Shown one piece after another: positions 579-27,765 of a DNA stretch of 64,000 nt; positions within the stretch are counted from its first letter, which is position 1, and every line of letters begins with the position of its first letter. The position numbers were made by a program, and so were the translations under genes. Origin of the DNA: Synergistetes bacterium HGW-Synergistetes-1 (GTDB taxonomy: Bacteria; Synergistota; Synergistia; Synergistales; Synergistaceae); contig PGXO01000006.1 in assembly GCA_002839185.1 (NCBI GenBank), positions 4,764 through 68,763 of the forward strand, written 5' to 3'. Below the pieces are notes generated by a model. The model was not told the DNA's origin. It made no database searches and worked only from the letters and a program-made list of their open reading frames with translations.

Positions 579-1355
579 CTAGAGGTAGAACAGTTGATTG
601 CGACTGTTATACAAAGTCTTATATCCGAAATAGAGGGAGCCGAATACTGATAGGCATACTACCGCGCAGATCGCTATCATGATCGAGATCTGGTAGAGGA
701 TGGCGGTCGTTGGGAGCGTTCCCGACAGTATCTGGCCGGTCATCATTCCGGGCAGGGAGACTATGCCCATTCCAAGCATTGAATTTAGGGTGGGTAGAAG
801 TGCGGTCTCAAGTGCCTGGTTTACCATTGGGAGCAGGATCTTCTGCGGTGTGACTCCGAGGTTTAGCAGGCTTTCCATCTGCTGGCGCTTTTCGCTGAGT
901 GATTCGCAGAACGTCTTTGTGGCAAGATTTACACCGGTCATGGCATTGCCGATTATCATACCGCTCAGAGGGATGACATACTGCGGATTAAATATGCTTT
1001 GCCCCACGACAGCGGTCACGAAGAAAATCACTATGCCCAAACCTGAACAGGTTAGAGAAAGGGCTATCGCGATCTTGAATCCGGTGTTCATGCATTTGTT
1101 TTTCGAAAGTACCCTGTGGATCGCAAAAAGTATCATGCTTGTCAGATACATAAGTATGAATATCGGATGCGGATTATCGAAAATGTATGTGAGGACAAAG
1201 CCAGCCAGGGTCAGCTGGAGAGTCAGCCTTACGCTTGCAACGAAAAGGAGCTTGGTCTGGTTTATTTTTGCTTTTTTCATTACAGCAAGCACTACAAGGA
1301 GCAGGATATATACGAGGCTGAACTGGACAAGGCTTATTGCAGCGATTTCACGCAT
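579..1355 (-). CDS. fetB: FetB/YbbM-type iron export ABC permease
   Basis: A 258-residue polytopic membrane protein with the YbbM (UPF0014) pattern: about seven hydrophobic segments and the conserved central block GMIIGNAMTG (around residues 133-142) followed by SLPGMMTGQIL. Length matches E. coli FetB (about 259). It overlaps the ATPase gene upstream by one base, so the two are co-translated; in E. coli FetA and FetB together export iron and raise oxidative-stress tolerance. The stop codon lies directly against the MITE-like palindrome at 450-577. Family assignment is firm; metal specificity is by homology. Confidence 0.88.
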   Translation of the reverse strand: MREIAAISLVQFSLVYILLLVVLAVMKKAKINQTKLLFVASVRLTLQLTLAGFVLTYIFDNPHPIFILMYLTSMILFAIHRVLSKNKCMNTGFKIAIALSLTCSGLGIVIFFVTAVVGQSIFNPQYVIPLSGMIIGNAMTGVNLATKTFCESLSEKRQQMESLLNLGVTPQKILLPMVNQALETALLPTLNSMLGMGIVSLPGMMTGQILSGTLPTTAILYQISIMIAICAVVCLSVFGSLYFGYKTLYNSRNQLFYL

Positions 1356-1981
1356 TATGGCTTGCTCCTTTCGAGTGCGATGATATTGTCTCCGTATTTT
1401 TCGGCAAGAGGAAGATAATGGCTTACTACGATAATTGTCATCTCGTTATCATTGGAAAAATTTATAATGTTCTTCATCATTGCATCCGAAGAGATGTTGT
1501 CCAGTGCTGATGTTGGTTCGTCAAGCATCAGGATTTTGGGCATGAACGAAAGGAATATCGCTATGTAGACCCTCTGCCGTTCTCCGCCAGACATAGTCTC
1601 GCATCTGGTCTCAAGAGGAAAATCTGCGCTGCATAGCTTGAGGAATTTCTCCATGTCTTCTTTTGGAAGAAGGTCGTGATCCCTGTATTCGTAATATTTT
1701 ATAAAATTTTCTTCTATAGTGCCTGTGAATAGGTAGACTGACTGGCTTACGAGGAGAATTTCTCTTCTTAGTTTGATCGTGTCGATATTTTCAATATTAT
1801 TATCGTTGTAGAGGATCTCTCCGCTGTCAGGGGAAATCGTGCCGTTAATAAGCTTGAGCAGCGTGCTTTTGCCGCAGCCGCTCGGACCATGTATGAATGT
1901 GGTTTCCTCCTTAGCGATTTTTATATCCGGGTATCTGATCATCGACTGAAAAACAACTTGATTGGCAGAAATGATATCCAC
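1355..1981 (-). CDS. fetA: FetA/YbbL-type ABC transporter ATPase
   Basis: A compact 208-residue ABC ATPase. Walker A GPSGCGKST at residues 32-40, Q-loop near 80, ABC signature SGGERQR at 131-137, Walker B ILMLDEP at 150-156, H-loop VVSHY near 190. The short length and pairing with a UPF0014 permease identify the FetAB iron exporter. It lies 27 bases downstream of the DUF188 gene, suggesting a three-gene minus-strand operon. Confidence 0.87.
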   Translation of the reverse strand: MDIISANQVVFQSMIRYPDIKIAKEETTFIHGPSGCGKSTLLKLINGTISPDSGEILYNDNNIENIDTIKLRREILLVSQSVYLFTGTIEENFIKYYEYRDHDLLPKEDMEKFLKLCSADFPLETRCETMSGGERQRVYIAIFLSFMPKILMLDEPTSALDNISSDAMMKNIINFSNDNEMTIIVVSHYLPLAEKYGDNIIALERSKP

Positions 1982-2624: not shown

Positions 2625-4970
2625 ATGGACCGATCTCTATGGACCCAAAAACGAAGTTGTTTTGCATGGTTTTTTTTCATCCTCTATTTCTGTGTTCAAA
2701 TACTGTTTTTTTCAGGAGTCGGCACATGTACAGCGCAGACGCTCCCGCCTCTGCATGAAGCAGAATCGATGATCGGAGAAGGGCCGGAAGTTCTTGCTGC
2801 GGTTGCTGCAATGGGCCGCGACGAACAGATGATGGAGCTTGAGCGTCAGCGCATGGGAGCTAAATATTTTTTCAGCGCTACTTTTGGATACAGCGATGAA
2901 CCCCTTTTTGAAACAAGCGAAGAATCCGCCTCCTACCGAAAATTAGGGATAGGAGCAGGTCTGGTTTTTCCCATTTTTGGAACATGGAACAAGCAGAAAA
3001 TAAATGCTCTGGAATCACAGATAAGATCGATAGAATCTGAGTACAGACCAAGGATATTAAAACTCCACAACCTCGCAGCACTTCGAAAGGCCTATGTTAC
3101 TTTATGGTCGGAATGTGAAAAAATTGCGATTGCAGAAAGGTTCCTCAAAACTGAAGAAAACACATCGAAGATACTGATTGAAAGAGAAAAAAAAGGACTC
3201 GTGCTTCCCGCGGACAGGATAGAGTTTTTGACTGCTTATGATATGGCAAGAAGGGATATTGCTGTGTCAAACATGAGGAAGACCCAGGCCCTGCAGATAA
3301 TCAGACTTGCAACAGGGCAATTATGGGAAATGCCTCAGAAAATGGAAATACCTACTCTGCCTGCTTTTAACGGTCTGGAAGCGGACATTGAAAAACACCC
3401 AGAGATTTCGATGAGAAAAGAGACACTGAAAAAATATGAAGATCTCATGCGTGAAAAAAGAAGCGTTGACAGGGAAGGATCATTTACTGTCGGTGCGACT
3501 GCGGCTAAGGATTTTCCCGGAGAGATAGGAAGCGGGGTCTATGCTTCCGTAACGATAAACGAACCTCTTGGAACTGCGTTCTCCAAAGAAGATAAAATAA
3601 AAAAAGCTGCAGAGCATGACCTGAAAAGAGCAAAGCGTGAAGAACTTTTCATGAGGATCAAAGTACAGGGAGAAGCTGAAGAGGCAGCATCCCTCGCGTC
3701 TTATGCAGTTGCTAATATAAGGGCACAGGAATCCAGGCTGGCTGCACTTACAGAGGCTGTGAGGGAGAGGATCATGAGACATGCTTCTCTTTCCGGTGAT
3801 ACATTTGAGCAGCTGCAAAAGAGCAGGTACCAGTATTACCGTGGAGTAATGGATCTCCTTGATTCCGAGATGATATTTATGCAGACAGGTGCAGACCTCC
3901 TTGGTTATGCATATCCCGACGGGCCATTATCTGAGCCGTCAGAGCGCATACGGCCGATAGCAGATAACCCTCTCAGGTCAAGAATGCTTGATCCTGACTG
4001 GCTTGCATCCAAAATAAATGTCCCCGGTGGCAATACCCGAATCCTGGAACTGGAAAAGCCTGTCCCGAAGGACTATCCTGCAGCGGGTTCTTCGGCATCA
4101 ACTGGCGTTCCTCACACAGCGACCGCTGTCGAGCCCACTAAGGTTGTTTCAACAGTCAGTCAGCCAAAAGAAGCAAAAGAGGGATCGATAAAAACCGATG
4201 TCTTAATGCCGAAATCCGTATATGTGTGGGATGCTTCGTCTTTTCTTGTCCCGGAGACCAGGATCTCTTCACTTGAGGAATTGAAAGCAAAAGGTTTTGA
4301 TCATTTCCTTATCTCTTTCACAGCGGAACAGGTAAAAAAATTTGATGATTATTACAACAGGATGGAGCTTGAAGATCTTCTTTCAACTTCTAAGAGCATG
4401 GGGATAAGGGTGGATCTGCTTCTCGGAGAACCAACATGGCTGTACCCTGAAGAACGAAAAGACCTCATCAGGATTATCGAAAGGATGAAAAAGTTCAAAT
4501 TCAGTGGCATACATCTTGATATTGAGCCTGATTCACTGCCCGGGGCAGAAGGAAAAAGGAAAGATCTCCTTGCCCATTTAATAGAGACTGTCAAAGAGGT
4601 AAAAAATACAACGGATCTTAAATTGTCTGTCTCAGTACACCCAAGGTATCTTGATGGGAGTCTTGGCGCAATTTTGTCAAAAGGATTTGCGGGACTGGGG
4701 CTTGAATACCTTGCTGTAATGATATATACGACAAATCAGGATACCGCGATAAAACGAATGAGGGATATCATGCTGATGCATCCCTCTTTGAACTTCCGCC
4801 TTGCCCAGAGCATTGAGAGGGTCCTTCCTCCTGAAGAGAGCTATTTCTCATCAGGGATAGATGTTTACAAACAAAGCATGGAAAATATATCCAGTGAGCT
4901 CTCAAACATCAGTAAGTTCAATGGTGTGATAATACAGTCATGGGAAGATATCGGAGGGATGTTTAGATGA
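2625..4970 (+). CDS. TolC-like outer-membrane protein fused to a glycosidase-like domain
   Basis: A 781-residue two-domain protein. Residues about 15-40 are a signal peptide (hydrophobic core, then TCTAQ). About 45-430 is a TolC/OEP-type region: long amphipathic helices with two helical repeats, alanine- and glutamate-rich. About 430-525 is a Pro/Ser/Thr-rich linker. About 530-781 looks like a TIM-barrel hydrolase: VYVWDASSF, HFLISF, the DxE-bearing strand SGIHLDIEPDSL (about 627-638), LSVSVHPRYL, AVMIYTTNQ, and VIIQSWEDIGGM at the end, similar in layout to GH18-like and other putative glycosidase barrels. First gene of a four-gene exopolysaccharide operon; its stop overlaps the HlyD start (ATGA). 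I know of no described TolC-glycosidase fusion. ATG chosen on GGGGGATACCG spacing. Confidence 0.8.
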   Translation: MDRSLWTQKRSCFAWFFFILYFCVQILFFSGVGTCTAQTLPPLHEAESMIGEGPEVLAAVAAMGRDEQMMELERQRMGAKYFFSATFGYSDEPLFETSEESASYRKLGIGAGLVFPIFGTWNKQKINALESQIRSIESEYRPRILKLHNLAALRKAYVTLWSECEKIAIAERFLKTEENTSKILIEREKKGLVLPADRIEFLTAYDMARRDIAVSNMRKTQALQIIRLATGQLWEMPQKMEIPTLPAFNGLEADIEKHPEISMRKETLKKYEDLMREKRSVDREGSFTVGATAAKDFPGEIGSGVYASVTINEPLGTAFSKEDKIKKAAEHDLKRAKREELFMRIKVQGEAEEAASLASYAVANIRAQESRLAALTEAVRERIMRHASLSGDTFEQLQKSRYQYYRGVMDLLDSEMIFMQTGADLLGYAYPDGPLSEPSERIRPIADNPLRSRMLDPDWLASKINVPGGNTRILELEKPVPKDYPAAGSSASTGVPHTATAVEPTKVVSTVSQPKEAKEGSIKTDVLMPKSVYVWDASSFLVPETRISSLEELKAKGFDHFLISFTAEQVKKFDDYYNRMELEDLLSTSKSMGIRVDLLLGEPTWLYPEERKDLIRIIERMKKFKFSGIHLDIEPDSLPGAEGKRKDLLAHLIETVKEVKNTTDLKLSVSVHPRYLDGSLGAILSKGFAGLGLEYLAVMIYTTNQDTAIKRMRDIMLMHPSLNFRLAQSIERVLPPEESYFSSGIDVYKQSMENISSELSNISKFNGVIIQSWEDIGGMFR

Positions 4971-6013
4971 GGGTGTCTTTTTCACAGACTCAAAAAAATG
5001 ATCCGGAATTGAGATCAGGAGTAAAGATCCCATATTCCCCCGGAAAAAGGAGTACTTCGAAACTTCTCTGGTGGTCGATACTGGCTCTTGTATTCACGCC
5101 GCTGATCGTTCTTTTATGGAACATTTTTATCGACTGGATCTTTGTTTCATCACCAGGGATAATAAGTATGGACAGCTTTGCAATAACAGCACCTGAGAAT
5201 GGTTTTATCAAAGAAGTCTATGCAAAAAAAGGGTTAGACGCAGATCCCGGCTTCGTGGCAATGAAGCTGGTAAGGGAACCTTCTCCGGAGCTTATTGATC
5301 AGATCGCGCTGATGAAAGCCGAAAGGGATTCACTCAGTTCGGCTTTGAATTCCCCAGCCAAGTTTCCGCTTATTTCTACCAGACTTGTTGATCAAAATAT
5401 CGAGTTCTACAGGAAAGAAGCAGTTACTGTCAGGCGTCTGATGGAACAGGGAGCTGCGACAAGGGCTGAACTTAACCTTGCAGAATCGAACCTCAGGTCC
5501 GCAATGGCAGAACGTGAATCGATATTATCAGTAAGAGCGGATGACACAGCGGAAAAAAACACCAGATCGAGGCTGGATTACTACAACAGGAGTATTGAAT
5601 ACCTTGAAAGCCTTAAAGGTTCTTCTTTTGAGGTGGTAATAAAAAGAGCAGGCAGGATCCAGTCTATAGAGGCCTTTCCGGGCCAGTCAGTAAATGCCGG
5701 AGACGATTTGCTTTGGATAGCTGATCCCAGGACTGCCAAGGTAATAGTCTATGTCGCTCCCGAGAATTTCGAAAAGATAAAGATTGATTCGGAAGTGAAA
5801 GTTGTTTTACCCGGCAAGTCAAAAGGTATCAAAGCGGTAGTTGAAGAAATGCCGACGACATCACAAAGCACTCCGGGCGGTTTAGGAAGCAGGATGCTTG
5901 TTTCCCCCCGAAGCATAAGGGTATATTTGACACTTAAACAACCTTTGCCGGAAGAGCGGATAGTTGACGGGCTTCCCGTGAAAGTCGAGTGGGGACTCAG
6001 GTCCTTTTTTTAG
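4967..6013 (+). CDS. HlyD/Alg44-like periplasmic adaptor
   Basis: A 348-residue membrane-fusion protein. One N-terminal membrane segment (about 33-56), first lipoyl half-motif ITAPENGFIKEVYAKKG (about 68-84), an alpha-helical hairpin (about 105-215), then the second lipoyl half GRIQSIEAFPGQSVNAGDDL and a beta-barrel region. No ATPase or drug permease lies next to it; its partners are a TolC-type protein upstream (4-base overlap) and a processive glycosyltransferase two genes downstream, which suggests it bridges the synthase to the outer-membrane channel, as Alg44 does for alginate. Role is inference; family is clear. Confidence 0.83.
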   Translation: MRVSFSQTQKNDPELRSGVKIPYSPGKRSTSKLLWWSILALVFTPLIVLLWNIFIDWIFVSSPGIISMDSFAITAPENGFIKEVYAKKGLDADPGFVAMKLVREPSPELIDQIALMKAERDSLSSALNSPAKFPLISTRLVDQNIEFYRKEAVTVRRLMEQGAATRAELNLAESNLRSAMAERESILSVRADDTAEKNTRSRLDYYNRSIEYLESLKGSSFEVVIKRAGRIQSIEAFPGQSVNAGDDLLWIADPRTAKVIVYVAPENFEKIKIDSEVKVVLPGKSKGIKAVVEEMPTTSQSTPGGLGSRMLVSPRSIRVYLTLKQPLPEERIVDGLPVKVEWGLRSFF

Positions 6014-6021
6014 GAGGATGA

Positions 6022-7506
6022 ATGATGAAAGAGTATAAAATTTACAGGATCCTTCTTGGTGAAGAGACTGCACATTCTCCCGACGGTAAAATCAGCGATT
6101 TCCAGAGTGCAAGGGAATTATTGGAAAAAAAGCCCGAGAGTGGAATAGTCCTGATCGATGGTCTTAAAGGCAAAAAGACATCGGACAAACTTAAAGTATT
6201 CTGGGAACTGGTTGAACTTAGAGAATCAGTGGAGTTTTGCTGTGCACCTATTTACTTGTCACGCACTATGCAGCAGGTAGACATTTTAGTAGACGGTATT
6301 TCAAGCAATATTGAAGAGAGGCTTCCTGAGGCAGCTTCCATACTTGAAAGAGGCAAAAGGATCAGCAGGGAAAAGCTGCTGGATAACCACAACCTGAGAA
6401 TGCTTTCCTATATGTATGTCAGGGGCGAAGAATATTCCCTTTCTCCAGTCTGCTCTCCTTTTTCACAATGGATATACTCCTACCCAGAAATGGCTCTCCT
6501 GCTTGACAGCTCTACAAAAGCATCGAAGATACTCAGGCCTGAAGATCTCAGTGGACTTGAGAGGCTGAGGTCTTTTCGGTTCGATACAGAGATGATAATG
6601 GCCCTGAGGGCAGTTACATTTCTTGAAGACCATGGATACATAACTCGAAATTTACTGGTGGACAGGGTGAGGAAATGTCCCAAATGTAAAACAGGCCACC
6701 TGAACTATGTCGATGTCTGCCCTAACTGCGGAAGCATCGATTTTAATAAAAAACTAATGATACACTGTTTTATCTGCGGACATGTTGCGCCGGACAGCGA
6801 TTTTAGAAAAAACATGTCATTCGTATGCCCGAAATGCAATACTGTATTAAGACATCTGGGAAGCGATTACGATCACCCTCTCGAGTCTCATGAGTGCAAC
6901 AACTGCGGATCAAAATTTATAGAGCCTGATGTTAAGGCTGACTGCCTCTTCTGTAGGACAAGGACAGATCCTTCTGATCTGACAGTTGTAAATGTTTACA
7001 GCTATAAGCTTTCAGAAAAGGGATCTGCTGCAGTACGGACAGGCAGTATGCAGATGGAGATCCAGCTGTTTGACGGGCAGAATAATCTAAAATTCAGCTA
7101 TTTCTGCAATATCATTGAATGGATGAGGGAATACCGGAAACGCTACGCTGATGAAGTTTTCACCTTGATAGGGCTTAAATTTTCCAACCTGTACGAAGTT
7201 GAAGATTTATTGGGAGAAGATCTATACAAAAAGATAATGGATGAGCTGATATTCCGTATAAGGGCTATGGTAAGGACCACTGACATAACCACTTCTTCAG
7301 CGCCTGATACTTTCTGGATACTGCTGCCAAGGACATTGTTTGACAACTCAACGATATTGGCAGAACGTATAGAGCTGCTGAATGACAAGCTTGAGATCAA
7401 GTCAGATAAGAAAATTGAGATCACTGCAAAATGTTTCCAGATACCGACTGAAGATAATGAGATTTCTGCGGAGAAATATCTGGAATTGTTTGCTGAAGAA
7501 CTTTGA
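6022..7506 (+). CDS. TackOD1-like zinc-ribbon protein with degenerate GGDEF-type C-terminus
   Basis: A 494-residue soluble protein. Residues 1-115 look receiver-like (alternating beta/alpha, VLIDGLK). About 200-320 carry six Cys pairs (CPKC, CPNC, CFIC, CPKC, CNNC, CLFC) within HGYI...CPKC...CPNCGS...CGHV...SDYDHP, the pattern of the TackOD1 metal-binding output domain. About 350-494 resembles a GGDEF fold (LIGLKF, RAMVRTTDI) but the GGDEF motif is absent (SAPDTFWILLP in its place), so no diguanylate cyclase activity is expected. It starts 8 bases after the adaptor with AGGAGG. Position between exporter and synthase suggests a regulator of polysaccharide output. Domain naming is from memory of the pattern, not a search. 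Confidence 0.72.
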   Translation: MMKEYKIYRILLGEETAHSPDGKISDFQSARELLEKKPESGIVLIDGLKGKKTSDKLKVFWELVELRESVEFCCAPIYLSRTMQQVDILVDGISSNIEERLPEAASILERGKRISREKLLDNHNLRMLSYMYVRGEEYSLSPVCSPFSQWIYSYPEMALLLDSSTKASKILRPEDLSGLERLRSFRFDTEMIMALRAVTFLEDHGYITRNLLVDRVRKCPKCKTGHLNYVDVCPNCGSIDFNKKLMIHCFICGHVAPDSDFRKNMSFVCPKCNTVLRHLGSDYDHPLESHECNNCGSKFIEPDVKADCLFCRTRTDPSDLTVVNVYSYKLSEKGSAAVRTGSMQMEIQLFDGQNNLKFSYFCNIIEWMREYRKRYADEVFTLIGLKFSNLYEVEDLLGEDLYKKIMDELIFRIRAMVRTTDITTSSAPDTFWILLPRTLFDNSTILAERIELLNDKLEIKSDKKIEITAKCFQIPTEDNEISAEKYLELFAEEL

Positions 7507-7525
7507 TCGAAAAACAGGAACTGAC

Positions 7526-8854
7526 ATGGAAGTATTCGAAGAGCTTTTGAGTTCAGAATATTTACCCCTTCTTTTTGAAGAAGGGGCAGGTACTCTTTTA
7601 CTCAAATTCATGCCCTTTGTCCTCTTTTTTGAATTGCCGCTCGCGATCCTGGTCATAATAGGTGTTATCAAATATACAGTCGACAGGAGATATGAAGGGG
7701 AACGAAGACCGTATTTCCCCTCTGTTTCCTGCATAATCACATGTTACAGCGAAGGCCGCGATGTACAGAAAACTATAATGTCTCTCACCGAACAGATATA
7801 TCCGGGCAAAATTGAGATGCTGGCAATGATCGACGGTGCAGCAAAAAACAAATTTACCTACGATTCAGCCCATGAAATGTCCCACTATGTATCGGGCTTT
7901 GAAAACAGAAAGCTTCTTGTTGTCCCCAAATGGCAAAGAGGCGGCAGGGTCTCCAGCCTGAACACAGGGCTCAATTTTGCGAGCGGAGAAATAGTAATGG
8001 CACTGGATGGAGATACTTCGTTTGACAACAACATGGTAGAGAGGGCCACCAGGCATTTTGAAGATCCAACAGTGGCAGCAGTATCAGGATGCCTCAGGGT
8101 AAGAAATGCCGATGAATCTTTGACAGCGTCTCTTCAGGCCATTGAGTATTTTATATCGATCCAGGCATCGAAGACCGGATTGAGTTCCTTTAACATGGTT
8201 AACAATATATCTGGAGCATTTGGCGTTTTCAGGAAAAGCGTACTTGACCTTGTAGAAGGGTGGGACGCAGGCACAGCGGAAGATCTTGATTTAACACTTC
8301 GGATAAAAAATTATTTTGGAAGATACAAAAAGAAATTCCGAATAATTTTTGATCCGGAAGCTATTGGACATACGGATGCCCCGGCGACATTCAAGGGGTT
8401 TCTGAAACAGAGGATAAGATGGGACGGTGATCTTTCCTACCTCTATTTTCGCAAGCACAAGCGCTCATTTAAACCTAAAATTCTCGGCTGGCCGAATTTT
8501 CTGATGATAATTTTAACGGGGCTCTTTTCACAGATAGTTATGCCTTTTGTCATCTTTGTATATACCGTATGGCTTTTTATCAGGTATCCGATTGAATATG
8601 CTTCTACTTTACTTTTTCTGGTCTATCTCTTTTATTTCTTTTTGCTTCTTGTAATGTATCTCATTTTTACAGCGTGTCTCTCAGAAAGACCTGAAGAGGA
8701 CCTGTCAAGGCTGTGCTTCCTGCCTCTGATGCCGCTGTTTGCCTTTGCTGCAAGGATGAACAGTCTGGTCGCAACAGTATGGGAGCTGACAGCAAGCGGT
8801 CATAAGGATACATCAATGGCTCCGTGGTGGGTAACTCGGAAAAATAAATTCTGA
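7526..8854 (+). CDS. Processive family 2 glycosyltransferase (exopolysaccharide synthase)
   Basis: A 442-residue membrane synthase. One N-terminal membrane segment (about 22-48), cytosolic GT2 domain with D103 (IDG), DGD 161-163, TAED 250-253 and QRIRW 295-299, then C-terminal membrane segments (about 325-345, 352-372, 395-440). These are the D, DxD, TED, QxxRW residues of BcsA/PgaC/HasA-type beta-glycan synthases. No PilZ domain is present, so c-di-GMP control, if any, is not through the enzyme itself. The frame is open upstream into the previous gene, but ATG 7526 (AGGA at 7515) is the first plausible start. The sugar polymerised cannot be told from sequence. The gene ends 2 bases from the convergent TauE-family gene. 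Confidence 0.85.
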   Translation: MEVFEELLSSEYLPLLFEEGAGTLLLKFMPFVLFFELPLAILVIIGVIKYTVDRRYEGERRPYFPSVSCIITCYSEGRDVQKTIMSLTEQIYPGKIEMLAMIDGAAKNKFTYDSAHEMSHYVSGFENRKLLVVPKWQRGGRVSSLNTGLNFASGEIVMALDGDTSFDNNMVERATRHFEDPTVAAVSGCLRVRNADESLTASLQAIEYFISIQASKTGLSSFNMVNNISGAFGVFRKSVLDLVEGWDAGTAEDLDLTLRIKNYFGRYKKKFRIIFDPEAIGHTDAPATFKGFLKQRIRWDGDLSYLYFRKHKRSFKPKILGWPNFLMIILTGLFSQIVMPFVIFVYTVWLFIRYPIEYASTLLFLVYLFYFFLLLVMYLIFTACLSERPEEDLSRLCFLPLMPLFAFAARMNSLVATVWELTASGHKDTSMAPWWVTRKNKF

Positions 8855-23396: not shown

Positions 23397-24331
23397 AAGA
23401 CGCGGAACAGGAAATTTGTCTGAGCTACAAAGAGGTAGGGAAGAAATTTAAAAACATCTCCGCTCTTGATGATATATATCTGGAAGTGCACAGGGGGGAG
23501 ATATTTGGATTCATCGGTCCTGACGGAGCAGGCAAGACTACGCTGATAAGGATGGCGATGGGGATAACCAATCCTGACAGAGGGGAATGTACCCTTCTGG
23601 GCAGCACCGACAGACGTAAGGCTAGAAAGAATGCCGGATACGTACCCCAGCTTTTTAGTCTATATACAGATATGACAGTAAATGAAAACATTGCCCTTTT
23701 TGGTTCGTTATACGGTACTTCCAGAGAAATTGTCCTTAAAAGAGCAGAAGCGATACTCAAACGTACCGGCCTGTGGCCTTTCAGGGAGAGGATGGTCGGA
23801 AAGCTTTCAGGAGGCATGAAGCAGAAACTGGCGCTTGCCTCGGGACTGATGCATACTCCTGAAATACTCTTTCTGGATGAGCCAACGACAGGAGTAGACC
23901 CGGTCGCACGAAGGGAATTTTGGGCGATGCTTTATGAGCTTAACAGAGAGGGACTGACAATAATAGTTTCAACTCCATATATGGACGAGGCGGAACTATG
24001 CACCCGCAAAATGTTCATCAACAATGGGAAAATACTTGATGTGGGTACTTCTGAAGAACTTCTTAGCCGTTTTGACAATAAAATACTTAAGCTGGAACTT
24101 GACGAAAGGCGTGCCAAGGAGTGGATTTTGAAGTGCGTGCATGTTCATGACGCTAATTTGTTTGGCAGCAGCTACCACATAGTTGTAGATGATGTTGTGG
24201 CGGCGGCCCGGGAGATAAAAGAAGAACTTGTTCTGAGATATACCGAAGCCCCTCAGCTTTACGAGATAACGCCAAGTCTTGAAGACCTTTTTGTCGCCTT
24301 TTCGGGAGGTACTCCCTCTTGCCCCAGATAG
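23393..24331 (+). CDS. ABC exporter ATPase, first copy
   Basis: 312 residues. Walker A GPDGAGKTT, Q-loop in YVPQLFSLY, signature LSGGMKQKL, Walker B ILFLDEPTTGVDP, and a C-terminal regulatory tail. It corresponds to the N-terminal half of the fused YbhF ATPase. The H-loop reads IVSTPYMDEAE: the usual switch His is replaced by Pro-Tyr context (normally TTHYMDEAE), so this subunit may be catalytically weak. Overlaps the second ATPase by 13 bases. Confidence 0.88.
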   Translation: MKDAEQEICLSYKEVGKKFKNISALDDIYLEVHRGEIFGFIGPDGAGKTTLIRMAMGITNPDRGECTLLGSTDRRKARKNAGYVPQLFSLYTDMTVNENIALFGSLYGTSREIVLKRAEAILKRTGLWPFRERMVGKLSGGMKQKLALASGLMHTPEILFLDEPTTGVDPVARREFWAMLYELNREGLTIIVSTPYMDEAELCTRKMFINNGKILDVGTSEELLSRFDNKILKLELDERRAKEWILKCVHVHDANLFGSSYHIVVDDVVAAAREIKEELVLRYTEAPQLYEITPSLEDLFVAFSGGTPSCPR

Positions 24332-25311
24332 CCGTCGAAACAAGGGAACTTACAAAAAAATTCGGTGACTTTACAGCCGTGGATAACATAACTATGTCGA
24401 TTGAAGAGGGTGCGGTGTATGGTTTCCTTGGACCTAACGGTTCCGGGAAATCCACAACCATCAGAATGCTCTGCGGTCTGCTTGCACCAACATCTGGAGT
24501 TGGGCTTGTCCTTGGGATGGATCTTGCCAAAGAGGGGAGAAAGATAAAAAACCAGGTTGGCTATATGTCTCAGAAGTTCAGTTTATATCCTGAAATGACA
24601 GTTATAGAAAATCTGGATCTCTACTCCGGCCTATATGGTTTAAAGGGAGCAGAAAAAAAGGAAAGAATAGAGCAGATGCTTGCGCTTGCTGGCCTTCAGG
24701 GAAGGGAAGACGAACAGACAAGACTGCTCTCGGGAGGCTGGAGACAAAGGCTGGCACTTGGGTGCGCGATTCTGCACAGGCCCAAAATACTTTTTCTGGA
24801 TGAACCGACAAGCGGAGTTGACCCTAAGGCAAGGCGCCTTTTCTGGGACATCATATACGATCTTGCTGCGGACGGAACCACGATAATGGTAACTACCCAC
24901 TTTATGGATGAGGCCGAACACTGTGATAAAGTGGCGTTCATATACTTTGGCGGCCTTATCGCTGACGATACGCCTGCGGATCTGAAAAAGCTTATTCCAG
25001 GAAAGTTATTCGAAGTGGATTCAGAGAACGGATTTGAACTCCTTGGCAGGGTACAGCGGGGTGAAGCGGGATCTGTAATCGATTCATACTTTTTCGGGAA
25101 AAAGCTCCATCTGCTTGTCAGCCAAGACAGCAGTATAAAAAACGAGGCAATATTCGAAGGATCTTTCGTTAAAGAAATAACACCATCCATGGAGGATGTC
25201 TTTGCATACCTTGTAAAGAAAGAATCAGCTAAGGAACTGGATGGCGGAAGGATCTCCGGCACAGGGGAGATCAGGCTGAATATTGACGTAAGCACGGCAA
25301 AAGAGGGATAG
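24319..25311 (+). CDS. ABC exporter ATPase, second copy
   Basis: 330 residues from TTG 24319 (GGAGG 9 bases upstream, inside the previous gene). Walker A GPNGSGKST, signature LSGGWRQRL, Walker B ILFLDEPTSGVDP, and an intact H-loop MVTTHFMDEAEHC. Corresponds to the C-terminal half of YbhF. With the preceding gene it probably forms an asymmetric ATPase pair. Confidence 0.88.
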   Translation: MPQIAVETRELTKKFGDFTAVDNITMSIEEGAVYGFLGPNGSGKSTTIRMLCGLLAPTSGVGLVLGMDLAKEGRKIKNQVGYMSQKFSLYPEMTVIENLDLYSGLYGLKGAEKKERIEQMLALAGLQGREDEQTRLLSGGWRQRLALGCAILHRPKILFLDEPTSGVDPKARRLFWDIIYDLAADGTTIMVTTHFMDEAEHCDKVAFIYFGGLIADDTPADLKKLIPGKLFEVDSENGFELLGRVQRGEAGSVIDSYFFGKKLHLLVSQDSSIKNEAIFEGSFVKEITPSMEDVFAYLVKKESAKELDGGRISGTGEIRLNIDVSTAKEG

Positions 25312-25313
25312 GC

Positions 25314-26447
25314 ATGGGATTTGGAAGACTTCGGGCACTTATAGTCAAAGAATTTATTCAGGTGATGAGGGACAGGCTTACCCTTGCCATGCTGATATTC
25401 ATGCCTGTGGCGCAGCTGCTGATATTTGGTTTTGCAATAAACACAGATGTCAAACATCTTCAGACCGCGATCTTCGATCAGTCAAGGACCCAGGAAAGCC
25501 GTGAAATGATACAGAGTTTCACTGCCAGCAATTACTTCGACATAAAATTATATGCCGATAACATCAAACAGATAAACAGGGCAGTAGAATCCGGAACTGC
25601 CAAGGTCGGGATAATAATCCCGACCGATTACGCACAGCGTTTGAAGAGCGGAAGGCAGACAAGCATACAGGTGATAATAGATGCTACGGACAACATGTCA
25701 GCATCTTCAGCAATGGCGGCAGCACAGACACTTGGAATGCTGAAATCACAGGAGATATCCGAAGTTAGATTCAGGAGAATGGGATTTGAGATACCCCCGC
25801 AGGCTGTTGATATGAGAATACGTCCCTGGTACAATCCGGATTTTATAACGTCGTGGTATCTTGTGCCCGGAATAATGGGTCTGCTTCTGACAATAACTCT
25901 GATCGCCATGATGGCGATGGCCATCGTACGAGAGAGTGAACAGGGAACGCTGGAACAGCTTCTTGTAACCCCTATGCATGCGTGGGAACTGCTCCTGAGC
26001 AAAATACTTCCATATATCATAGTCGGCTATATTCAGGTCATAGTCTCAATTATTGTTGGTATGGCCATATTCAGGATGCCCTTTTTAGGAAGCAAGATAC
26101 TTTTCTTTGTTCTGACTTTCTTCTATGTAGTTGCGAATCTCTCACTTGGGATAATGATCTCGACCTTTTCGCAAAACCAGATGCAGGCTTTGCAGCTTTC
26201 GATATTTCTGATCCTGCCAAGCGTACTGCTTTCGGGGTTTGTTTTCCCCATCGAGGCGATGCCAATAGGGTTTCGTTATCTCGGGGAGTGCATACCAATA
26301 ACATATTACATAAGGCTCTCACGGCAGATAATACTCAAGGGCGGCGGATTTGAATATGTGTGGAAAGATACCCTCGCATTGTGCGTATATATTGCTGTGA
26401 TGTTCTCTTCAAGCATAGTCATGTTCAAAAAACGTTTTGTGCCATGA
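25314..26447 (+). CDS. ABC-2 type permease (YbhS/YbhR-like)
   Basis: 377 residues: one membrane segment near 20-40, a periplasmic loop of about 140 residues, then five segments from about 175, with VRESEQGTLEQLLVTPMHAWELLLSKILPY and LLSGFVFPIEAMP, both typical of the family. Only one permease gene is present, where the E. coli ybhFSR system has two; it may act as a homodimer. Confidence 0.87.
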   Translation: MGFGRLRALIVKEFIQVMRDRLTLAMLIFMPVAQLLIFGFAINTDVKHLQTAIFDQSRTQESREMIQSFTASNYFDIKLYADNIKQINRAVESGTAKVGIIIPTDYAQRLKSGRQTSIQVIIDATDNMSASSAMAAAQTLGMLKSQEISEVRFRRMGFEIPPQAVDMRIRPWYNPDFITSWYLVPGIMGLLLTITLIAMMAMAIVRESEQGTLEQLLVTPMHAWELLLSKILPYIIVGYIQVIVSIIVGMAIFRMPFLGSKILFFVLTFFYVVANLSLGIMISTFSQNQMQALQLSIFLILPSVLLSGFVFPIEAMPIGFRYLGECIPITYYIRLSRQIILKGGGFEYVWKDTLALCVYIAVMFSSSIVMFKKRFVP

Positions 26448-26466
26448 TCCTCAGGAGGCTAAGAAA

Positions 26467-27765
26467 ATGAAAAAAATGTCTCTCTTATTAAAAATTGTAT
26501 CGTCATTTATCATACTTATCTCATTTGCTGAGGTTTCATTCTGTGCAGACTCCCATAGTCTCGAAAAACTGATCCTGAAAGCCTGTGAGGGAAACCCGTT
26601 AATATCTGCTGCAGAGGAAAGAGTCTTGCAGGCGGAAGGGGCGCTGCAGGAAGCGGGGGCAAAAATGGGTCCCAAATTTGGTGTGGGTGTTGCCGCTATC
26701 TGGCCGAGAGACAGATTCGTACCCATTGAAGGTCTGCCGTTGGGTTTTGGGAATGTGTACATAGCAGCTGCTGGTTTTGTGCAAACGATTTACGCGGGAG
26801 GATCGCTCTGCTCTTCAAAAGAGGCAGCAAAGCTTGCAAGGGATGCAGCTGAAGCAGAGAAGGAAAGGATAACCCAGACGGTCACTAACTCTGTCAGAGT
26901 TGCCTATTACAATTGGAAACGAGCATTTGAAAAAGAAAAAGTATCCAAAGAAGCTCTGGTACTTGCCAACGATCATCTGTCGAGGGCAGAGAAGCTTTTC
27001 AAATCGGGACTCATTGCAAAAGGAGACGTTCTGAGGAACAAAGTTGCAGTTGCTGACGCTGAGCTTAACCGTATAAGGGCAGATAACGCAGTTGAGATAT
27101 CCGTCAGCGTACTTGAAAGGGCAGTTGGCTCTCCGCTGGATCTGAAGGAGATAGAAGGAGTAAAAACTGATTTGGATATTGTCCCGTCCATTGAACCGAC
27201 ATCAAATATGGAAGAGCATATTAAGGCGGCTTATGAAAACAGGATGGAGATAAAGATGTACGATCTAATGAGCAGGCGAGCCCTTAAGGTAGCCAGGGCT
27301 GCGGAAGGTCAGCTCCTGCCCCAAATAATAGCTGCCGGAGCTGTAATGAATTCCGGGAACGAGTTTTTCCCGAGCGGTAATGAGGAAGTGGTTTTTTCAA
27401 TGATAGCCCGTTGGACTATTTTTGACAGCGGAGAGACCGTCGCAAAAACAAAACAGGCGAAAGCTCAAGCGAGGGAGCTTATCCATCTTATTGATGACAT
27501 GAAGAACACGATCAAAATGGAAGTAACTCAGGCAGAGCTGAATCTTAAATCATCACACAGCAGACTCGAGGTTGCGGAACGCCAGGTTGCTGAGTCAGAA
27601 GAGGACTATAGGATCGCGGTCAGAAAATACCAGGAACAGGTGGGAACAAACCTGGACATGCTGGACGCCAGATTGGCTCTTACCAACAGCCGGACAGAGA
27701 AAGTGGAAGCTTTGTACGATATCTATATTGCAGAGGCGGACCTCCTGTATTCACTGGGTAAATAG
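26467..27765 (+). CDS. TolC-family outer-membrane channel
   Basis: 432 residues from ATG 26467 (AGGAGG upstream). Signal peptide to about residue 25 (AEVSFCAD), then two OEP repeats of long helices and beta segments (SLEKLILKACEGNPLISAAEERVLQAEGALQEAGA; VEALYDIYIAEADLLYSLGK at the end). Completes the exporter. Not fused to any other domain, unlike the TolC-like protein at 2625-4970. Confidence 0.87.
   Translation: MKKMSLLLKIVSSFIILISFAEVSFCADSHSLEKLILKACEGNPLISAAEERVLQAEGALQEAGAKMGPKFGVGVAAIWPRDRFVPIEGLPLGFGNVYIAAAGFVQTIYAGGSLCSSKEAAKLARDAAEAEKERITQTVTNSVRVAYYNWKRAFEKEKVSKEALVLANDHLSRAEKLFKSGLIAKGDVLRNKVAVADAELNRIRADNAVEISVSVLERAVGSPLDLKEIEGVKTDLDIVPSIEPTSNMEEHIKAAYENRMEIKMYDLMSRRALKVARAAEGQLLPQIIAAGAVMNSGNEFFPSGNEEVVFSMIARWTIFDSGETVAKTKQAKAQARELIHLIDDMKNTIKMEVTQAELNLKSSHSRLEVAERQVAESEEDYRIAVRKYQEQVGTNLDMLDARLALTNSRTEKVEALYDIYIAEADLLYSLGK

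Follow-up and report, generated by a model that had tools for sequence, protein, structure and literature searches.

The mxdABCD operon of Shewanella oneidensis is needed for three-dimensional biofilm, and mxd mutants form flat biofilms (PMC3691769, PMC7666153). Deletion of either mxdA or mxdB also results in the loss of aggregation (PMC3691769, PMC7666153). MxdB is a membrane type II glycosyltransferase, MxdC is efflux-pump-like and MxdD is a hypothetical protein (PMC3691769). MxdA binds c-di-GMP and contacts both CheY3 and the cyclase PdgA (PMC7666153). The product of the Mxd system is a proposed polymer (PMC3691769, PMC7666153).

Other described systems resemble the locus analyzed here in part. 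The Pga system (PNAG; PgaA-D) likewise pairs a membrane GT2 glycosyltransferase with a hydrolase in the periplasm and a way out through the outer membrane, but this exit is the porin PgaA and the hydrolase is carried by PgaB, whereas in our locus the exit has a TolC fold with a hydrolase-like domain fused to it. A TolC route for a synthase-made polymer has been proposed, as an unproven model, for cyanobacterial cellulose (PMC12430437). This XcsAB-TolC model contains the same idea of GT2, HlyD and TolC; however, its TolC is encoded elsewhere and its synthase is BcsA-like with a PilZ domain, while the locus described here has no PilZ and little similarity to BcsA. The rhizobial mixed-linkage glucan genes bgsBA also encode a GT2 and an HlyD-like protein under c-di-GMP control, but there c-di-GMP binds the C-terminus of the GT2 itself, and neither a TackOD1 protein nor a channel-hydrolase fusion has been described (PMC9495663).

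The analyzed stretch of DNA (the window; 64 kb of a Synergistota genome) contains four genes, all on the + strand, at positions 2625-4970, 4967-6013, 6022-7506 and 7526-8854. The successive junctions are a 4-base overlap and gaps of 8 and 19 bases, in agreement with the first-pass annotation. For gene 4 the mechanical ORF caller placed the start at 7382, and homologues favor 7526. The neighboring genes on either flank lie on the opposite strand, so the operon stands alone. Promoter-like and terminator-like sites were no more frequent than in shuffled sequences. On the upstream side, a pair of genes at 579-1981 (- strand) reads as a metal-export-like ABC permease and ATPase (FetAB-like) and adjoins a YaiI/YqxD-like gene at 2009-2518. 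At 24319-27765, three consecutive genes code for an ABC ATPase, its ABC-2 permease and a TolC-family protein; they form a tripartite exporter of ordinary type, distinct from the operon.

A Pfam scan of the four proteins revealed no PilZ, TPR or porin domain, which places the operon outside the TPR-porin class of synthase systems (Bcs, Pga, Alg, Pel). The lack of PilZ had been noted in the first-pass annotation, together with that of Wza, a flippase and a TPR-barrel porin; these latter absences hold within the operon, the only place checked.

The order of the gene blocks, TackOD1-GT2-(channel-hydrolase)-HlyD, pointed to mxdABCD of S. oneidensis. Five promoter primers, whose sequences are printed in PMC3691769, gave exact matches just upstream of mxdA and thereby pinned the MR-1 locus, which corresponds to TackOD1 locus L261 (genome G954) among the 152 genomes examined. 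Its four products are a TackOD1/degenerate-GGDEF protein (462 aa), a GT2 (442 aa), an HlyD-like protein (362 aa) and an orphan (122 aa). Homologues of MxdA, MxdB and MxdC are adjacent in the window, and this homology identifies three of the four operon proteins as the Mxd core. We therefore regard it as almost certain that the operon belongs to the Mxd core. The first-pass annotation had called the operon undescribed, which is incorrect for three of its genes, since these form the core of the S. oneidensis Mxd system, for which mutant phenotypes are known. It had also proposed a self-contained version of the cyanobacterial cellulose route, but the nearest system proved to be Mxd (406 bits to MxdB vs. 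34.7 bits to BcsA).

The two systems share MxdA (TackOD1 plus degenerate GGDEF with an I-site), MxdB and the HlyD-like MxdC, and the MR-1 genes are adjacent in the A-B-C order seen in most four-gene relatives. They differ in that the MR-1 locus has the 122-aa MxdD orphan in place of the channel-hydrolase gene, and in that the channel-hydrolase and HlyD genes come first in Synergistota. No gene resembling the accessory mxdD was found at 2625-8854, and MxdD itself has no Pfam match; mxdD was likewise not found in the four-gene relatives, in which small ORFs were not searched systematically.

The strongest kinship was observed for gene 4 (7526..8854, +), whose 442-aa product is a processive-type GT2 and shares 47% identity with MR-1 MxdB over 415 aa (406 bits). 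GT2 families were matched in Pfam with up to 73 bits, and TM segments are found near residues 30-48, 327-352 and 362-380. The motifs D103, L-D161-G-D163, A-E252-D253 and QRIRW (295-299) are all conserved in Synergistota; the predicted D, DxD and QxxRW were thus recovered, and the expected TED reads AED. The similarity to E. coli PgaC was lower (110 bits, 28% identity). E. coli BcsA gave only 34.7 bits, and kinship with BcsA or with cyanobacterial cellulose synthesis was rejected; the XcsAB-TolC model, with its PilZ-containing BcsA-like synthase, does not describe this operon. A lipid GT2 such as ArnC, with 32.7 bits, was rejected as well.

Synthesis of a polysaccharide by the operon is very probable. 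The GT2 would polymerize a nucleotide-sugar and move the chain over the inner membrane, as its motifs and TM layout suggest. Alternatively, the enzyme might act once or a few times, and the product moved by HlyD and TolC would then be a short oligosaccharide or a glycolipid. Oligosaccharides are made by NodC-like GT2s, which score 73.8 bits against the window protein, and the Mxd polymer itself is only proposed. Nevertheless, the processive-type QxxRW with its TM layout, the closeness to PgaC (as opposed to the low ArnC score), and the flat biofilms and aggregation defects of mxd mutants make such a product improbable. The GH18-like and PgaC/NodC-like relatives permit a guess, by analogy, that the polymer may contain hexosamine.

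Gene 3 (6022..7506, +) encodes the 494-aa MxdA homologue, composed of a receiver-like domain, a TackOD1 zinc domain (6601..7011, +) and a degenerate GGDEF fold (7057..7503, +). It matches MR-1 MxdA with 183 bits and 31% identity and has the same Pfam architecture. TackOD1 was detected with 188 bits, and its Cys/His ligands are nearly invariant in about 123 homologues; GGDEF scored 21.4 bits, under the cut-off of 23.8. The GG[D/E]EF position reads APDTF, and the motif was present in none of the 123 readable homologues, so that an active diguanylate cyclase was ruled out; the zinc protein with a degenerate GGDEF was thus correctly recognized from the sequence in the first reading. Five residues before this position lies an I-site-like RxxD (R418-T-T-D421; 7273..7284, +), whose R and D are kept in 118 of the 123 homologues, as expected of a c-di-GMP receptor with a degenerate GGDEF. 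In the predicted structure, both the receiver part and the GGDEF part can be aligned with PleD and WspR, and a Palleronia relative (L278) has a TackOD1 protein with a recognized receiver domain.

RxxD is frequent among GGDEF domains generally, and its retention is therefore suggestive, rather than proof, of c-di-GMP binding. With the catalytic motif lost and the I-site kept, the MxdA-like protein would be a c-di-GMP receptor, not a diguanylate cyclase, and by extension from the work on MxdA it probably activates the GT2 by contact. Control by c-di-GMP in this organism is fairly likely. No active diguanylate cyclase was found within the 64 kb window. Genes for PAS-GGDEF-HD proteins adjoin the operon in a related genus of Synergistota (L058 and L067; two loci scanned), which is consistent with a c-di-GMP link.

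Gene 1 (2625..4970, +) encodes a protein of 781 aa with an N-terminal signal/TM helix, here termed OEP-GH, in which a TolC/CusC-type outer-membrane factor is fused to a GH18-like TIM barrel. Its fold was predicted with AlphaFold2 from a 34-row alignment. The OEP domain (residues 40-444; 2742..3956, +) was recognized by its Pfam profile (39.1 bits vs. a cut-off of 22), and the predicted structure matches CusC, OprM and TolC with Z up to 24.8 (VIA Z 24.8 over 389 residues to 5azs; 24.6 to CusC 3pik). Both profile and fold thus identify an outer membrane factor of the TolC/OEP type. A low-confidence linker (residues 463-526; 4011..4202, +; pLDDT < 50) connects the channel to a (beta/alpha)8 hydrolase-like domain (residues 527-781; 4203..4967, +), which in the prediction resembles GH18 chitinases and the functional region of Cwp19 with Z of 18-19 (18.6 to chitinase 6k7z; 18.9 to Cwp19 5oq3). 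These results bear out the earlier description of a TolC-like protein with a glycosidase-like domain.

The GH18 profile scored 17.3 bits, under the curated cut-off of 29.6, so that family membership is not assigned by score, and a sequence search of solved structures with the OEP-GH profile gave no match; only the predicted fold ties the barrel firmly to GH18. The full GH18 motif DxxDxDxE is not present: its first two Asp residues are not conserved and DxE is kept, within G-x-H-L-D-x-E. The conserved residues of the barrel are H630-L-D632-x-E634, Y701, E731 and Q771.

TolC chains end in the periplasm, and a barrel on the channel C-terminus should therefore be periplasmic. There, the GH18-like domain would trim or clear the polymer. 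Hydrolysis of the operon's own polymer is somewhat favored, and remains putative given the sub-cut-off GH18 score and the reduction of DxxDxDxE to DxE. These same features, the loss of the first two Asp and the low score, together with the place of Cwp19 among the top structural matches, would also fit a catalytically silent domain that guides the polymer, or one acting on peptidoglycan so that the channel can cross the wall. However, 34 divergent sequences all retain D632 and E634 and nearly all retain Y701, the HLDIEP core is retained even in the most divergent clade, and in Pseudomonas the barrel without a channel is still found between the GT2 and HlyD genes. We consider a silent or peptidoglycan-acting domain possible but rather unlikely; it would affect the hydrolase step alone and leave the remainder of the Mxd-type reading intact.

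The product of gene 2 (4967..6013, +; 348 aa, one N-terminal TM) is an HlyD-type periplasmic adaptor and MxdC homologue. HlyD_3 was matched with 41 bits, and similarity to MR-1 MxdC extends over the full length (54.7 bits, E 7e-13, 20% identity); this likeness is weak and counts against an Mxd-type machine. The adaptor had been described as HlyD/Alg44-like, of which the HlyD part stands, whereas the Alg44 part does not (no PilZ; general HlyD likeness only). It would span the periplasm to the dedicated TolC-family channel encoded by gene 1, and export through this OEP channel is likely. That the Shewanella operon works without an OEP-GH gene likewise counts against an Mxd-type machine of this form.

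To establish how widely the operon is distributed, its relatives were surveyed within Synergistota and among named species genomes. Protein 1 relatives were detected in 33 of 188 Synergistota genomes (17 of 63 genera), and the order OEP-GH, HlyD, TackOD1, GT2 recurs around them across Synergistota families; ORF picking was crude, and some operon members were missed in G+C-rich Synergistota genomes. A TackOD1 profile scan of named species genomes yielded 152 relatives, 80 of which were kept. Their hosts include Synergistota, Desulfobacterota, Pseudomonas, Marinobacter, Halomonas relatives, Thioalkalivibrio and Nitrosomonas, as well as Burkholderia, Ralstonia, Planctomycetota, Acidobacteriota and Bacillota MAGs. 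Fused OEP-GH, HlyD, the TackOD1 protein and GT2 were encoded side by side at 65 of the 80 loci, and at three more the barrel occurs with no channel; contig ends interrupt most of the remainder. Two gene orders were observed, in which the same blocks, [OEP-GH, HlyD] and [TackOD1, GT2], are swapped, with the OEP-GH and HlyD pair first in Synergistota. Conservation of the gene order outside the source genome, which the first-pass annotation had set as a test of its proposal, is thus evident, and recurrence in many phyla makes the order far beyond chance.

OEP and HlyD proteins are usual components of efflux and type 1 secretion systems, and the pair could in principle form such a pump with no tie to the adjoining GT2. 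This is most improbable in view of the two-block linkage (65/80 loci), the absence of an ABC, RND or MFS partner from the operon, and the persistence of HlyD beside TackOD1-GT2 even at loci without OEP-GH. Taken as a whole, the operon is likely to be a full-length, synthase-dependent exopolysaccharide machine of the Mxd type. Of the original proposal of an undescribed exopolysaccharide synthesis and export operon, the synthase, the HlyD/TolC pair and the hydrolase-like domain are retained, as conserved parts, and novelty of the whole and kinship with cellulose systems are not.

Several loci were noted for their genomic setting. A mobilizable Aeromonas caviae plasmid (NZ_AP024951.1; L150) carries a TackOD1-GT2 pair whose GT2 is 93% identical to a Stutzerimonas copy, which marks a recent transfer of Mxd-type genes. 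In alphaproteobacterial plasmids, TackOD1-GT2 is followed by HlyD (L152, L153) or by an unnamed protein (L277, L278). The Photobacterium megaplasmid pDA100 has two separate TackOD1-GT2-HlyD sets (L203, L149), indicating that one replicon can hold paralogous Mxd-like systems. Among the sequences attributed to the archaeon Methanomethylovorans, one contig (JAHFZE010000063.1; L069) contains a full operon with a TackOD1 protein 87% identical to that of the window; its archaeal assignment is probably a binning error.

In a GT2 tree, Shewanella and Enterobacterales sequences from loci without OEP-GH nest with those of Pseudomonas and Burkholderiaceae, most of whose loci include this gene. Another group lacking OEP-GH (Legionellales and others) likewise falls inside the larger clade. 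The most divergent GT2 clade has a distant barrel protein and the gene order of the window. The root of this tree is uncertain, with PgaC forming a very long branch. Since the Shewanella GT2 nests inside a clade having OEP-GH, Shewanella probably lost this gene. Whether Mxd was ancestrally a complete four-gene system, representing a widespread class of synthase-dependent polysaccharide secretion with a dedicated TolC-type exit that bears its own hydrolase, and the Shewanella operon is a reduced version that has to borrow another exit, is in our view evenly balanced.

As a biofilm polysaccharide operon, the locus is ordinary and its core has already been described; the channel-hydrolase gene is a real addition. 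This fourth gene, missing from Shewanella mxd and present in most other phyla, is what is new: no description of OEP-GH as a part of Mxd, or of Mxd outside Shewanella, was found in the literature searched, which lacks most subscription papers. With this analysis, an Mxd-like system is recognized in Synergistota, Desulfobacterota, Nitrosomonas, Pseudomonas and others, in which the genes have been only generically named. The four-gene form supplies a candidate exit channel for Mxd and a candidate polymer-recognizing enzyme, so that both the polymer and its route become testable. If the proposed reading is true, synthase-made polymers can use a TolC route, with all of its parts encoded in one operon.
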